A DNA stretch of 64,000 nucleotides from NCBI GenBank assembly GCA_022707885.1, contig JAKIZT010000006.1, positions 1 through 64,000 on the forward strand. Direction: 5' to 3'. The DNA comes from Caldisericales bacterium (GTDB taxonomy: Bacteria; Caldisericota; Caldisericia; JAAYUI01). Position 1 is the first letter of the stretch, and each line of letters begins with the position of its first letter. Shown here one piece after another: positions 1-5,414 of this stretch. The translations under genes were made by a program, and so were the position numbers. The notes beneath the pieces were generated by a model. It saw only the letters and a list, made by a program, of their open reading frames with translations, did no database searches and was not told where the DNA came from.

Positions 1-28
1 GTCATTGTTTCTCCAATAAAAATATACT

Positions 29-37
29 TGTTATAAT
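29..37 (+). promoter_or_regulatory. Extended -10 promoter of the serine operon
   Basis: TGTTATAAT is a perfect extended -10 box (TGn plus TATAAT at 32-37). No convincing -35 box is visible, which fits an extended -10 promoter. The predicted start near 44-45 places the hairpin at 45-60 at the very 5' end of the transcript. Confidence 0.55.
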
Positions 38-44
38 CAGTTTG

Positions 45-354
45 GCCCACTTTGGTGGGCAACGCTTGAAAACAAAAAATCGGTTATTACAATAGGAGGC
101 CCGGAAGGAGTGAAGTGATTGAAATAATATCGCTCTCAAGCGCTTTCCCTTTGGGCAGGGGTATCTTACCAGACCCAAAATGCAACCGCGATTGGCATGG
201 GAACAGCGCTTCAAACAGAAAAGGATCGCTCTGTAAGTATCCTCATATCAAAAAAATCCGGACACAAAATAACATAGAGCTTTTGACGCAAAATCATGCA
301 GTTAACCGCGGCGGAACACCGCCCCGGCCACAATAAACCGAAAGGAGTTTTTTG
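45..354 (+). promoter_or_regulatory. Structured 5' leader RNA, riboswitch or attenuator candidate
   Basis: About 310 nt of untranslated leader precede the serine operon. Visible helices: hairpin 45-60 (GCCCAC/GTGGGC); stem 84-93/118-127 with one mismatch; a three-way junction with closing helix 138-149/199-211 (12 bp, one bulge), hairpin 150-179 and hairpin 180-198 joined without linkers; hairpin 222-243; and GC-rich hairpin 306-327 just before the ribosome site. CGCTTGA at 63-69 can pair with TCAAGCG at 136-142, which would break the junction's closing helix, so two exclusive folds exist. I do not recognise it as a known riboswitch class. The ligand is unknown; serine-pathway metabolites are an inference from context. 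Confidence 0.5.
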
Positions 355-1497
355 ATGAAAACATTGTACAAATTTTTGCTCGCACCGGGTCCAACCCCGC
401 TTCCAGAAGAGGTAAGGCTTGAGGGCGCAAGGGAAATAACGCACCACAAGCATCCAGTCGCCAAGAAGATGTTCCGCAAGGTGACGGACGACATGAAATG
501 GCTCCTTGGGACCAAGTATGACTCCTATCTCCTGGCCTCATCAGGATCCGGCGCCATGGAAACAGCCGTTCAGAACCTTATCAACACCGGAGACAAAGTC
601 ATCATAATCAATGCCGGAAACTTTGGTGGAAGATGGGTAAAGATAAACAAGGCTTATGGTGCAAACGTTGTCGAGATTAAGAAAGACTGGGGAGATATGG
701 CAACTCCAGCAGAACTTGAAGCAGTATTAAAAGCAAACCCGGACACAGTTGCTGTTTTCTGCCAGCTCTCCGAAACATCGACCGGCGCATGTTCTGACAC
801 TGCAGGTTTCGCAAAAATAGTCAGCAAGACCAATGCGATCCTCGTGGTTGATGGCGTTTCAGGCATCGGCGTTGTGCCACTCAAGATGGACGAGTGGAAT
901 GTTGATGTGGTGGTTGGTGGTTCACAGAAGGGTATGATGCTTCCGCCAGGAATGGCTTTCATCTGCATGAACGAAAAAGCATGGAAGCTCGTTGAAAACA
1001 ACAAGCAGCACAAGTTCTATTTTGACCTCAAGCTGTTCCAGAAAAAGCTTGTCGATAACGAAACTCCATGGACGCCACCGATCGGGATCATCTACCAGGC
1101 TGACAAGGCGTTCGAGATGATGAAGGCAGAAGGACTTGAAAACGTCTGGGCAAGATCAACAAAGCTCGCCAAGGGCATCAGAACCGCTATGAAAGCAATG
1201 AACCTCGAGCTGTTTGCAAAATGCCCGGGCGATGCAGTAACAACAGTCAAGATCCCGGATGGCGTTGATGGCAAAAAGGTGACCTCAGTCATAAGGGACA
1301 AGTATGGCATAACAATCGCCGGTGGCCAGGGCGACTTCTCAGGCAAAATCTTCAGGCTTGGTCACATGGGATATATGGACATGTACTCCGAGCTGGCCTG
1401 CCTCGCAGCGCTGGAGCTTACATTCAAAGAGCTAGGACACAAGTTTGAAATCGGTTCTGGCGTCTCTGCCTTCATGAAGGAGATGGCGCAGGAATAA
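355..1497 (+). CDS. Class V PLP-dependent aminotransferase, probable serine-pathway transaminase
   Basis: This 380-residue protein belongs to the fold-type I class V family (alanine/serine-glyoxylate and alternative phosphoserine aminotransferases). The cofactor lysine lies in a GGSQKG motif near residue 192, preceded by the PLP-binding VDGVSG aspartate. Start: ATG at 355, seven bases after AAAGGAG; an in-frame TTG at 352 is less likely. The next gene is serA, 20 bp downstream, so it probably makes phosphoserine from phosphohydroxypyruvate. Glyoxylate aminotransferase activity cannot be excluded. The gene follows an unusually structured leader (45-354). Confidence 0.88.
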   Translation: MKTLYKFLLAPGPTPLPEEVRLEGAREITHHKHPVAKKMFRKVTDDMKWLLGTKYDSYLLASSGSGAMETAVQNLINTGDKVIIINAGNFGGRWVKINKAYGANVVEIKKDWGDMATPAELEAVLKANPDTVAVFCQLSETSTGACSDTAGFAKIVSKTNAILVVDGVSGIGVVPLKMDEWNVDVVVGGSQKGMMLPPGMAFICMNEKAWKLVENNKQHKFYFDLKLFQKKLVDNETPWTPPIGIIYQADKAFEMMKAEGLENVWARSTKLAKGIRTAMKAMNLELFAKCPGDAVTTVKIPDGVDGKKVTSVIRDKYGITIAGGQGDFSGKIFRLGHMGYMDMYSELACLAALELTFKELGHKFEIGSGVSAFMKEMAQE

Positions 1498-1517
1498 ATC
1501 CAAAAGGGGGTGTTTTT

Positions 1518-2432
1518 ATGGCCAAGATATTGATTTCTGATCCAATAGCAAAAGCAGGAGTAGACCTTCTGCAAAAAGAAGGGCATGAGGTCATTATCAA
1601 AAAAATGACACCCGAGGAGCTTGTCGGTTCAATCGGGGATTATGATGCCATCATCGTCAGGTCGGCCACAAAGGTCACTGCTGACGTAATCAAGGCCGGC
1701 TCAAAACTGAGGATCATCGGAAGAGCCGGTGTTGGTCTGGACAATGTTGACTCTGGTGCTGCAAAAGAAAAGGGGATCAAGGTTGTAAATACCCCGGCAG
1801 CAACATCAATCAGTGTTGCAGAGCTCGCCATTGGCCACATGCTTGCCGCATCCCGCTGGATTGGTTATGGAACAGCCACCATGAAAGAAGGCAAGTGGGA
1901 AAAGAAGACCATGGAAGGCGTGGAACTCTATGGAAAAACACTGGGACTCATTGGTGTTGGAAGAATCGGCAGGGAAACAGCCAAGAGGGCAATTGCATTC
2001 GGAATGGAAGTAATCGCCTTCGATCCATACGTTTCCGATCCTGGCATGCAGGGCATACGCATGGTGACCAAGGATGAATTGCTTGCAAAGGCAGATTTCA
2101 TCTCGCTCCATATCCCGCTTACCCCTGAAACAAAAAATATTCTGGACAAACAGGATTTTGACAAATGCAAAAAGGGCCTCGTCCTTGTAAACTGCGCAAG
2201 GGGTGGCACTGTCAACGAAGAGGCGCTCTATAATGCGCTGAAAGAAGGAAAACTCTTCGCGGCCGGCATTGATGTCTTCGAGAAAGAGCCACCGGAAGGA
2301 GTAAACAAGCTGGCCTCGCTGCCGAATGTTGCCCTTACCCCACACATTGGCGCCGCCACCGAAGAAGGCCAGACAAGGGCTGGTGTCCAGCTGGCAGAAA
2401 AGATTGCCGAATTTTTCAAGGAAGGAAAATAG
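1518..2432 (+). CDS. serA: D-3-phosphoglycerate dehydrogenase, short form
   Basis: NAD-dependent oxidation of 3-phosphoglycerate, the first committed step of serine synthesis in the cytoplasm. The 304 residues contain the Rossmann motif GLIGVGRIG (about 143-151), the NCARGG motif and the catalytic-region histidine in HIGAATEEG near residue 275. The protein ends after the catalytic fold, with no C-terminal ACT or ASB regulatory domain, so classical serine feedback through an ACT domain is not expected; control could instead lie in the leader RNA. AAAGGGGGTG precedes the ATG. It sits between the aminotransferase and a DUF1015 gene in one operon. Confidence 0.93.
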   Translation: MAKILISDPIAKAGVDLLQKEGHEVIIKKMTPEELVGSIGDYDAIIVRSATKVTADVIKAGSKLRIIGRAGVGLDNVDSGAAKEKGIKVVNTPAATSISVAELAIGHMLAASRWIGYGTATMKEGKWEKKTMEGVELYGKTLGLIGVGRIGRETAKRAIAFGMEVIAFDPYVSDPGMQGIRMVTKDELLAKADFISLHIPLTPETKNILDKQDFDKCKKGLVLVNCARGGTVNEEALYNALKEGKLFAAGIDVFEKEPPEGVNKLASLPNVALTPHIGAATEEGQTRAGVQLAEKIAEFFKEGK

Positions 2433-2438
2433 AAATCG

Positions 2439-3779
2439 ATGGAAATACTCCCCTTCAAAGGAGTTCACTACAGCAAACAGGCTGGCAACATACAGGACCT
2501 GATCACCCAGCCATACGACAAAATCACCCCAAAAATGCAGGAGGAATACTACAAGACCTCGCCTTACAACGCCATCCGCGTTGAGCTGGGAAAGGACCTC
2601 CAGGGGGACAACGAGAACTACAACAAGTACGTCAGGGCAGAGTGGTATACAAAGCTGTGGATGGCAGAAAATATTTTTGAGCGCGACCAGGAGCCGTGCA
2701 TCTATGTCTATAACCAGGAATACATCCATCCTGATACGGGCAAGATCGTTACCCGCATGAGCTTCATAGCACTAGGCAAACTCCACGAGTATTCGGAAAA
2801 GATTGTTTATCCGCACGAGCACACACTTTCTGGCCCAAAACAGGACAGACTCATGCTCATGAGGTCAACAAAAACAAACACTGGCCTCGTGCTGATGTTC
2901 TACAGGGACAATGAGGACGCAATCAACAAGGTGCTCTCCGGGAAAACCGGCTCGGAGCCCCTCTTTGATGCTGTGGACGAATACAGGACCCACCACAAGA
3001 TCTGGAAAATCAGCGACCCGGCAACAATAAAAAAGGTACAGGACCTGATGGATTCAAAAACAACCATCATCTGTGATGGCCACCACAGGTATGAAACCGC
3101 CCTCAACTATCGCAACGAGATGAGGGAAAAGAACCCGGGTTTCACTGGCAAAGAAGGCTGGAACTACAGGATGATCGCCTATGTCAACATGGCTGATCCA
3201 AACCTTTACGTTTTCCCAACCCACAGGCTGGTCCGTGATGTCCCGAATTTTGATGGTGCAAAACTGCTTGAACAGCTCAAGGGAAGTTTTGATGTAACAG
3301 AGGTTGAAATTTCCGGACCAGCAGTCGACGCCGCAAGGAAACTGGTCGAGATGATGGGCAAAAACGTGGACAAGCACGCCTTCGGGTATTTCCCGAAGGG
3401 CTCAAAAAAGATGTACATGCTGACCCTCAAAAACCTGTCAATCGCCGATTCCATTCCAGTTGAAAAATCCAATGACTGGAAGAGGCTGGATGTAACGATA
3501 CTACACAAGCTGATACTTGAAAAACAGCTTGGAATTGACGATGCAAAGCTTGCTGCCCAGACAAATGTTGACTATGAAAGGTATGTTCCGGAAGCAGTCG
3601 AGCCTGTGGCCAAAGGCACTCACCAATGCGTGTTCCTCATGAATCCAACACTCACAACCCAGGTTGAGGATGTAACAAAACACTTCGAGACAATGCCGCA
3701 GAAATCAACTGACTATTTCCCGAAAGTCCAGTCAGGGCTTGTGATCCAGTACTTCCCCGATAAAGAGACTGTAAAGTAA
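2439..3779 (+). CDS. DUF1015 family protein
   Basis: A 446-residue soluble protein that I place in the DUF1015 family from its opening (a FKGVHYS..-type start followed by ITQPYDKI), the central CDGHHRYETAL block and its length. The conserved CDGHHR suggests a metal or nucleotide site, but the biochemical role is not established. Members often lie next to serA and class V aminotransferases, as here, suggesting a link to serine or one-carbon metabolism. It starts 7 bases after serA stops, with AAGGAAAA as a modest ribosome site, and ends before the terminator at 3801-3830. Confidence 0.8.
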   Translation: MEILPFKGVHYSKQAGNIQDLITQPYDKITPKMQEEYYKTSPYNAIRVELGKDLQGDNENYNKYVRAEWYTKLWMAENIFERDQEPCIYVYNQEYIHPDTGKIVTRMSFIALGKLHEYSEKIVYPHEHTLSGPKQDRLMLMRSTKTNTGLVLMFYRDNEDAINKVLSGKTGSEPLFDAVDEYRTHHKIWKISDPATIKKVQDLMDSKTTIICDGHHRYETALNYRNEMREKNPGFTGKEGWNYRMIAYVNMADPNLYVFPTHRLVRDVPNFDGAKLLEQLKGSFDVTEVEISGPAVDAARKLVEMMGKNVDKHAFGYFPKGSKKMYMLTLKNLSIADSIPVEKSNDWKRLDVTILHKLILEKQLGIDDAKLAAQTNVDYERYVPEAVEPVAKGTHQCVFLMNPTLTTQVEDVTKHFETMPQKSTDYFPKVQSGLVIQYFPDKETVK

Positions 3780-3800
3780 CCGGAACTCGATCAGAAAAAT

Positions 3801-3830
3801 AAAAAACGGCCCCCAAAAAGGCCGTTTTTT
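3801..3830. terminator. Intrinsic terminator of the serine operon
   Basis: AAAAAACGGCC and GGCCGTTTTTT form an 11-bp A-tract/GC/T-tract stem with an 8-nt loop, 21 bases after the DUF1015 stop. The symmetric A and T tracts would let it work in both directions. Confidence 0.9.
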
Positions 3831-3905
3831 ATTTGGTCGCAAATTGCGATTTGTGTAAATATTTTAATCGTGAATGCCGGACTTTTTTGTAGATAATGTT
3901 CCCGT

Positions 3906-4490
3906 ATGGAAAAATGGCTCATAGCAGGACTTGGAAACCCCGGACTCAAATACGCGCACACGCGGCATAATGTTGGTTTTGACGCAGTGGATGCCCTCGC
4001 AAAATTGCTGAAAACAAGGATTTCAAGAATGTCCTGCGGGGCCAAAATAACCAGGGTGGCGCTGGAAGAGCTTGAATTTGTCATTGCGAAACCGCTTTCC
4101 TTCATGAACCTCTCCGGAGGGCCGGTCAATTGCCTTGCAAATGCGAACCAGATACCTTCCGACCACTGGATAATCATCCATGACGACATAGACCTCCCGT
4201 CAGGGGCCCTCAGGATCAGGAAAAGCGGATCAAACGGCGGGCACAAGGGAATTGCATCCATCATGCAGGAAACCGGAAAATCGGACTTCTACAGGATAAA
4301 AATAGGCGTTGGAAGGCCCGAGACAAAGAACGAGGTCGTTGATTTTGTCCTCTCGAGGACAAAGGATGAAGGACTAGAAGAGGCAATAAAAAAAGCCGCA
4401 CAGGCTTGCCTTTTTCTCATCGAGGAAGGCTACCAGGCGGCCGGCAACAAGTTCAATTTTGTGCCAAAAGACCAGGACGAGCTAGAATAG
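3906..4490 (+). CDS. pth: Peptidyl-tRNA hydrolase
   Basis: Releases tRNA from prematurely dropped peptidyl-tRNA. The 194 residues have the family landmarks: GLGNPG near the N terminus, catalytic His21 in TRHNVGF, the HDDIDLPSG loop and GSNGGHKGI. Length is normal. No Shine-Dalgarno is seen; GATAAT/TAATGT at 3892-3899 lies 6-8 bases before the ATG, which would give a leaderless mRNA, though no good -35 box is evident. Its last 9 bases overlap the convergent mrr-like gene. Confidence 0.95.
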   Translation: MEKWLIAGLGNPGLKYAHTRHNVGFDAVDALAKLLKTRISRMSCGAKITRVALEELEFVIAKPLSFMNLSGGPVNCLANANQIPSDHWIIIHDDIDLPSGALRIRKSGSNGGHKGIASIMQETGKSDFYRIKIGVGRPETKNEVVDFVLSRTKDEGLEEAIKKAAQACLFLIEEGYQAAGNKFNFVPKDQDELE

Positions 4491-5414
4491 GTCCTCAGGG
4501 AAATAATCCCTGTCGACTTTCTTGATTTCGTATGTGCTGCTCGTGCTGACGCCAAGTCCGTGGTCAATCATCAATTCAACGAGCTTTCTGCCGTCAACAA
4601 GTGAAATCCGGCTGTCAATTTTTTCTATGTATTCCCTGGCATCTTTTGTGAAATCAGAAGTAGTGATAAAAATGCCTTTTTTTGAGTGATTGCCAGCCAG
4701 GCTGCCCACAAAGGCTTGAACAACTGGTCTTCCAACGGTATTTTCCCATCTCTTGGCCTGAATATAGATCTTGTCCAGACCAAGCTTGTCTTCATCAATT
4801 ACGCCATCAATCCCGCCGTCACCCGTTTTCCCAACCGCCTTGCCAGCCTCGGCCCTTGAACCACCATAGCCCATCTTCAAGAGTAGATCAATGACAAGTT
4901 TTTCAAAAAATGACGGGTCGACCCTCTTTACTGTTTCGAGCAGCTCGTCTGAAAGGTTTTCCCTCAAATCTCTGCAGGCACGGTCTATCTCTTCTTCTGG
5001 GGTTACACTCCTGCAATTATCCAGTCCCTCCAGCACTTCTTTTTTGCCGTCATCTTTCTGTTGCTCTCTTTGAGAGTAACTTGAAACCCATTCTCTATAT
5101 TTAGGATATCGCTCCATCAGGAAATTGTTGTCTATTTTGGCTGGGTTCTCTTTCAGTAATTTTCTTCCTTCTTCGGTAATCATTACAAAAGCAGGTTTTG
5201 TTTTTACAATAAGACCAGATTTTGAAAGATATAAAAAAGACCATGCAATTCTATTTTGGTATTTTAACGAGCCAGAGGCAAGCCTTTCTCTTTTTTCTTC
5301 TTCTGTTATGCCCAATATTTTCGCCACTGGTTCATAAGTATCTTTTTTACTCCACTCTTTACCATCTGACAAAACCTTGAGAACTGGTATAAAAAAATTG
5401 GTAAATTTGACCAT
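4482..5414 (-). CDS. mrr: Mrr-type restriction endonuclease
   Basis: A 310-residue protein with an N-terminal winged-helix Mrr_N region (about 1-90) and a C-terminal PD-(D/E)XK nuclease (about 165-290): MGYGG, then GDGGIDGVI with the metal-binding aspartate, then QAK in IYIQAKRW. The catalytic D...QxK triad is intact. Mrr enzymes are type IV systems that cut methylated foreign DNA. No methyltransferase or specificity subunit lies nearby, as expected for a solitary type IV enzyme. AAGGAG lies 7 bases before the ATG. It follows the FecR-domain gene by 24 bp and may be co-transcribed. Confidence 0.85.
   Translation of the reverse strand: MVKFTNFFIPVLKVLSDGKEWSKKDTYEPVAKILGITEEEKRERLASGSLKYQNRIAWSFLYLSKSGLIVKTKPAFVMITEEGRKLLKENPAKIDNNFLMERYPKYREWVSSYSQREQQKDDGKKEVLEGLDNCRSVTPEEEIDRACRDLRENLSDELLETVKRVDPSFFEKLVIDLLLKMGYGGSRAEAGKAVGKTGDGGIDGVIDEDKLGLDKIYIQAKRWENTVGRPVVQAFVGSLAGNHSKKGIFITTSDFTKDAREYIEKIDSRISLVDGRKLVELMIDHGLGVSTSSTYEIKKVDRDYFPEDLF

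Follow-up and report, generated by a model that had tools for sequence, protein, structure and literature searches.

An operon for an aminotransferase, SerA, and a DUF1015 protein appears, from sequence comparison, to be preceded in a single genus of uncultured Caldisericia by a genus-specific, cis-acting 5' leader of about 255 nt. The leader would be transcribed from a promoter at positions 66 to 93 of the window, the 64,000-nucleotide stretch of contig sequence analyzed here. The leader RNA proposed in an earlier note on this DNA is upheld as a structured and strongly conserved 5' leader, with the fold itself being a prediction, but not as the switch proposed there. Across all RNA-level readings taken together, a regulatory leader that acts as RNA is quite probable. 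The single most likely mechanism is ribosome-mediated control by serine, which we put forward tentatively. Feature coordinates are collected in Table 1.

A conserved leader upstream of a serine operon

The window starts at a contig end (base 1 of contig G000:C66 of a Caldisericia MAG). Serine is the product of the operon, in which the genes follow the order aminotransferase-serA-DUF1015 and which probably ends at an inverted repeat followed by a T-run, read from the sequence at about 3807 to 3830. By sequence, the closest solved chain to the aminotransferase is a serine-glyoxylate aminotransferase. SerA (304 amino acids) aligns to positions 1 to 303 of the 525-position PGDH model and contains dehydrogenase domains only in a domain search, in keeping with the earlier statement that it lacks an ACT domain. 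SerB was not found over the cut-off in the genus, and the DUF1015 protein may provide the final step in making serine. This protein carries a DGHHR motif at residues 213 to 217, which we take to be reminiscent of ParB/sulfiredoxin-type free serine kinases. It has no solved relative by sequence, and its structure model (pLDDT, 48.8) is too poor for a fold search; "DU1015" is found among ParB-CTPase-fold fusions (PMC12704722). Another contig of the same MAG (G000:C29, locus L085; 4,205 bp) is 93.2% identical to window positions 466 to 4670 and represents either a co-binned strain or a duplicated operon; the leader is cut off there.

We compared the orthologous leaders of the window and of loci L031, L032, and L033, which represent one species each of the same genus. 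Fourfold-degenerate sites in the aminotransferase gene differ by 18 to 35% among these four species, whereas no other invariant run in the first 4,490 bases is as long as block A or block B. Block A contains the promoter, the putative RNA start, a Shine-Dalgarno (SD)-like site, serine codons, and the 5' strands of helices P1 and P2. Elsewhere, the invariant share is 46% at positions 1 to 59, 47% at 155 to 171, 88% at 172 to 235, and 64% at 236 to 294. Because another promoter region of the genus (3841 to 3905) is also well conserved, at 92%, conservation up to about position 105 can be a promoter effect. That of 105 to 154 and 295 to 354 needs a reason other than a promoter. Just upstream of the conserved block, the window has a hairpin at 43 to 61 (GCCCAC-TTTG-GTGGGC); L032 has one of different sequence at the same place (CTGCCA...TGGCAG, about 4690 to 4711), in a region otherwise diverged.

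Of 101 genomes searched at the DNA level, only 4 proved to contain the leader, that of the window and three of the same genus, with one copy per genome. A covariance model of positions 60 to 240 recovered the same four and nothing convincing otherwise among 54 genomes of the phylum. The leader is absent from the sister genus (G004), in which the aminotransferase gene lies directly 3' of another, transporter-like gene, and from other families, in which that gene has a short upstream region. By these searches, the leader is therefore a genus-level feature. A plasmid search returned no homologue of the leader, and a 30-mer from block A matched no viral contig; five viral contigs matched a 17-mer taken from P1/P2. 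A second copy of the element near serS, suggested by an 11-base match plus AGCGCTT, was rejected, as its fold is different and chance alone should give about 0.2 pairs of this kind in each genome (an estimate). In L097 and L099, an AGCGCTT...TGGCATGGGAA pair in common with the serine leader lies upstream of serS on the opposite strand, and the secreted-protein gene divergent from serS starts 265 nt downstream of this pair.

Table 1. Features of the leader and operon, in window coordinates
Feature	Position	Strand	Basis or conservation
Extended -10 (TGTTATAAT), promoter of the earlier note	29..37	+	Kept in window and L031; TATAAC in L033; absent in L032
Block A, 97 nt	58..154	+	Invariant in 4/4 species; longest invariant run in window 1-4490
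Sigma70-like promoter, TTGAAA-16-TACAAT	66..93	+	10/12 consensus; invariant; one per genome
SD-like AAGGAG of leader ORF	105..110	+	Sequence; invariant
Hairpin P0 (107-113/130-136), covers SD-like site	107..136	+	Folding; invariant
Leader ORF, GTG start, 73 codons, begins VIEIISLSSAFPLG	115..336	+	Frameshifted in L032 (63 codons)
Codons TCG CTC TCA AGC (Ser-Leu-Ser-Ser)	130..141	+	Sequence
Zero-linker three-way junction: P1 138-149/199-211, P2 150-179, P3 180-198	138..211	+	Folding, pairs checked
Possible hairpin P4	223..242	+	Two double changes in L032; mismatches in other rows
Block B, 69 nt; hairpin, SD, first-gene start	295..363	+	Invariant in alignment of four species
GC-rich hairpin, no T-run after	306..327	+	-13.1 kcal/mol; invariant
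SD AAGGAG, first operon gene	342..347	+	Sequence
Class V aminotransferase, serine/alanine-glyoxylate type; first operon gene	355..1497	+	Profile/sequence match
SerA (phosphoglycerate dehydrogenase), no ACT domain	1518..2432	+	Domain match
DUF1015 protein; third operon gene	2439..3779	+	Domain match

The promoter and an open reading frame with serine codons

The extended -10 element that the earlier note took as the promoter is present in the window and L031 but is not conserved across the genus (Table 1). It lies in a region that evolves like neutral sequence (positions 1 to 59) and is probably not the operon's conserved promoter. The sigma70-like promoter at 66 to 93 is a stronger candidate; 0.6 matches of this quality are expected in shuffles, and the upstream edge of conservation, at 58 to 60, falls 6 to 8 bases upstream of its -35 box. 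Transcription from this promoter would start at about 98 to 101.

An SD-preceded open reading frame (ORF), which the earlier note had missed, begins at a GTG at position 115, with both SD and GTG within about 20 nt of the putative transcript start. Its N terminus would read VIEIISLSS, and its serine codons run into the 5' strand of P1. Among 5,000 shuffles of positions 94 to 330, 0.28% contained an SD-preceded ORF having serine at three of four codons within the first 20, an SD-preceded ORF of at least 63 codons occurred in 1%, and both properties in one ORF occurred in none (0/5,000); the serine-cluster test was chosen after the ORF had been seen. There is no early stop codon, and the frame is open to 334 to 336. 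The ORF ends 18 nt short of the operon start codon in three species; in L032, where a one-base deletion shifts the frame, the gap is about 49 nt. That frameshift and the lack of codon-position bias among substitutions in the four species led us to reject a real gene at 115 to 336; the ORF does not encode a conserved protein. The leader SD-like site and the operon SD each lie within a copy of the 11-mer CCGRAAGGAGT (101 to 111 and 338 to 348, respectively) in 4/4 species. A scan of 420 nt upstream of serS or glyA turned up no comparable serine ORF; the L098 entry in that scan is not upstream sequence, since its contig ends early.

The predicted fold and the proposed switch

The zero-linker three-way junction described in the earlier note is predicted in all four species. 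P1 has 12 bp with one bulged base at 204, the P2 stem pairs 150 to 155 with 174 to 179, the P3 stem pairs 180 to 183 with 195 to 198, and zero unpaired bases separate the helices. P1 is part of the minimum-energy fold of the window, L031, L032, and L033 from either assumed start, and the pair probabilities of its 7-bp base add up to 5.7 to 6.6 of 7 across the four species; the P2/P3 part refolds in the prediction for L033. The local folding energy of the junction gives z scores of -2.3 to -2.9 (four species), with P3 alone being weak (-1.6 kcal/mol), and the leader as a whole is only a little more stable when folded than shuffled sequence (z, -1.9). Substitutions avoid the stems: the 12 variable positions of the junction comprise 2 of 44 paired and 10 of 30 unpaired bases (P = 0.0024; four species). 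One of the two stem substitutions retains a wobble pair, and the other breaks its pair. No pair in P1, P2, or P3 shows a double (compensatory) change among the four species, and overall covariation does not exceed that of shuffles, a comparison that cannot decide the matter because it has only four species with nearly invariant stems. The GC-rich hairpin near the ribosome site, also described earlier, is borne out by its invariance and predicted energy (Table 1; z, about -2.7 to -3.0).

According to the earlier note, a helix of 63-69 with 136-142 competes with P1, giving the leader two states. The complement does exist and is invariant (CGCTTGA/TCAAGCG). However, a 7-bp match to the 5' region of P1 arises in 6.7% of shuffles (41% for a match anywhere in the junction), and forcing the helix costs 2.7 to 9.4 kcal/mol. 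In addition, the 63-69 arm coincides in part with the -35 box of the sole promoter that is conserved, and it is probably not transcribed, because that promoter puts the start at about 98 to 101. The folding prediction leaves the operon SD equally accessible with the junction free, covered, or removed, and no intrinsic terminator occurs in positions 1 to 420. Given constant SD access, the lack of a terminator, and the cost of the helix, no switch is visible in the thermodynamics. The proposed switch could still be argued for an RNA started from the promoter at 29 to 37, in which the helix could form before P1 is complete, and, provided that 68 to 85 is transcribed, RNAalifold pairs part of it with the SD region. 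With that promoter not conserved and the 5' arm accounted for by a -35 box, we consider such a switch very improbable. Thus, of the riboswitch or attenuator proposed earlier, the conserved structured leader, the serine operon, and the SerA without an ACT domain are supported, and the two-state switch is not. As this case illustrates, what is put forward as a "competing helix" may turn out to be promoter DNA. An anti-SD element (247-259/344-356) was also considered and rejected; it costs 1.9 to 6.0 kcal/mol relative to the best fold, and the run of conservation there is unexceptional (P = 0.15).

Mechanistic readings and relation to known systems

In the mechanism that we tentatively favor, a ribosome would load at the SD close to the 5' end of the transcript, start at GTG 115, and read the serine codons, which lie beside the 5' strand of P1 and partly inside it. 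With little charged tRNA-Ser available, slow decoding would hold P1 open and would also keep ribosomes from moving along the leader ORF toward the operon start. Serine supply would in this way set operon translation or Rho-sensitive transcription. Ribosome-mediated serine control is consistent with the two invariant blocks, with the fit of the conservation edge to the promoter at 66 to 93, with an SD and GTG close to the putative start, and with a serine ORF that is rare in shuffles and precedes an operon whose product is serine. The junction predicted in 4/4 species, with stems spared by substitutions, points the same way. No match to the T-box (RF00230) was found in the leader or the four genomes, nor does the leader contain the T-box sequence AGGGTGGNACCGCG with up to 3 mismatches; charged tRNA would thus need another sensor, as there is no T-box in the genus. 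Against serine control stand the post hoc serine test, the missing early stop, the L032 frameshift, the absence of codon-position bias, the lack of a terminator, a predicted SD access independent of the junction, and the lack of a serine ORF in the 420 nt upstream of serS or glyA. We consider doubtful a serine-specific, ribosome-sensed leader in which a serine-codon ORF begins a few bases from the 5' end of the transcript and runs through the junction to near the operon start, so that serA expression depends on the passage of ribosomes and not on a terminator. For a Leu leader, which could have served to cross-check attenuation in the genus, no LeuA was found over the cut-off, and a literature search found no account of amino-acid control in Caldisericota. 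We know of no serine leader-peptide family of this kind, and Rfam has no match to one. If serine control is true, serine joins the amino acids sensed through leader ORFs.

Somewhat less likely than serine control, and on its own rather improbable, is that the leader is a binding site for a protein or small RNA or shields the mRNA against decay, with the serine codons being coincidental and the junction and 306-327 hairpin serving as binding or stabilizing elements. Two independent invariant folded blocks suit such a role, which needs no coupling between them; folding predicts none. It has no candidate protein, however, and does not explain the SD-preceded serine ORF; CsrA control was rejected because no CsrA gene occurs in the four genomes (69 to 95% complete). 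It is unlikely that the junction is the aptamer of a metabolite riboswitch, in a class not yet described, that controls operon translation. Such a riboswitch would account for a zero-linker junction with conserved loops before a metabolic operon whose SerA lacks an ACT domain. A covariance-model check of the window leader and its most diverged orthologue against all 4,227 Rfam families gave no credible match at an E value of ≤10, in agreement with the earlier description of an unnamed class. On the other side, nothing in the leader can be identified as an expression platform, since a terminator is lacking and the ribosome site shows no predicted change; the element also occurs once per genome in one genus and lacks covariation above shuffles among four species with invariant stems. 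If it holds, the leader is a new orphan riboswitch candidate before a serA gene without an ACT domain. Less likely still is control at the DNA level, in which block A would combine a promoter and operators, among them the palindrome AAGCGCTT and related sites, and the RNA fold would be a by-product. Block A does start at the promoter, ANCGNTT-type sites lie at 61, 139, and 205, and the other conserved promoter region of the genus is in line with this reading. It does not explain block B or the stem-avoiding substitutions, and a LacI operator was rejected since no LacI-family helix-turn-helix regulator was found over the cut-off in the same four genomes (69 to 95% complete). In descending order of probability, we thus rank serine control, protein binding or mRNA stability, a riboswitch, DNA operators, and the earlier two-state switch.

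Known systems resemble the leader in part. The serC motif is an orphan riboswitch candidate of alphaproteobacteria (PMC1273637, PMC7266159) and likewise an RNA that precedes an operon for serine synthesis containing serA and an aminotransferase gene. Its structure has covariation support (PMC7266159), unlike the leader described here, which has no match to it at an E value of ≤10 and belongs to another phylum. In Paenibacillus polymyxa, a T-box controls serine biosynthesis (PMC8002221). There, too, a long structured leader precedes a serine operon and would sense tRNA-Ser, but our leader has neither a T-box match nor the T-box sequence. In leader-peptide attenuation, regulatory codons occupy just such a place by the 5' strand of a stem. 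The leader ORF differs from those of such attenuators in having no early stop and no intrinsic terminator and in losing its frame in L032. Like the Trp, His, Thr, Leu, and Phe leader attenuators, it has an SD and a start codon just after the putative transcript start, and codons for the operon product cluster where a stable stem has its 5' strand.
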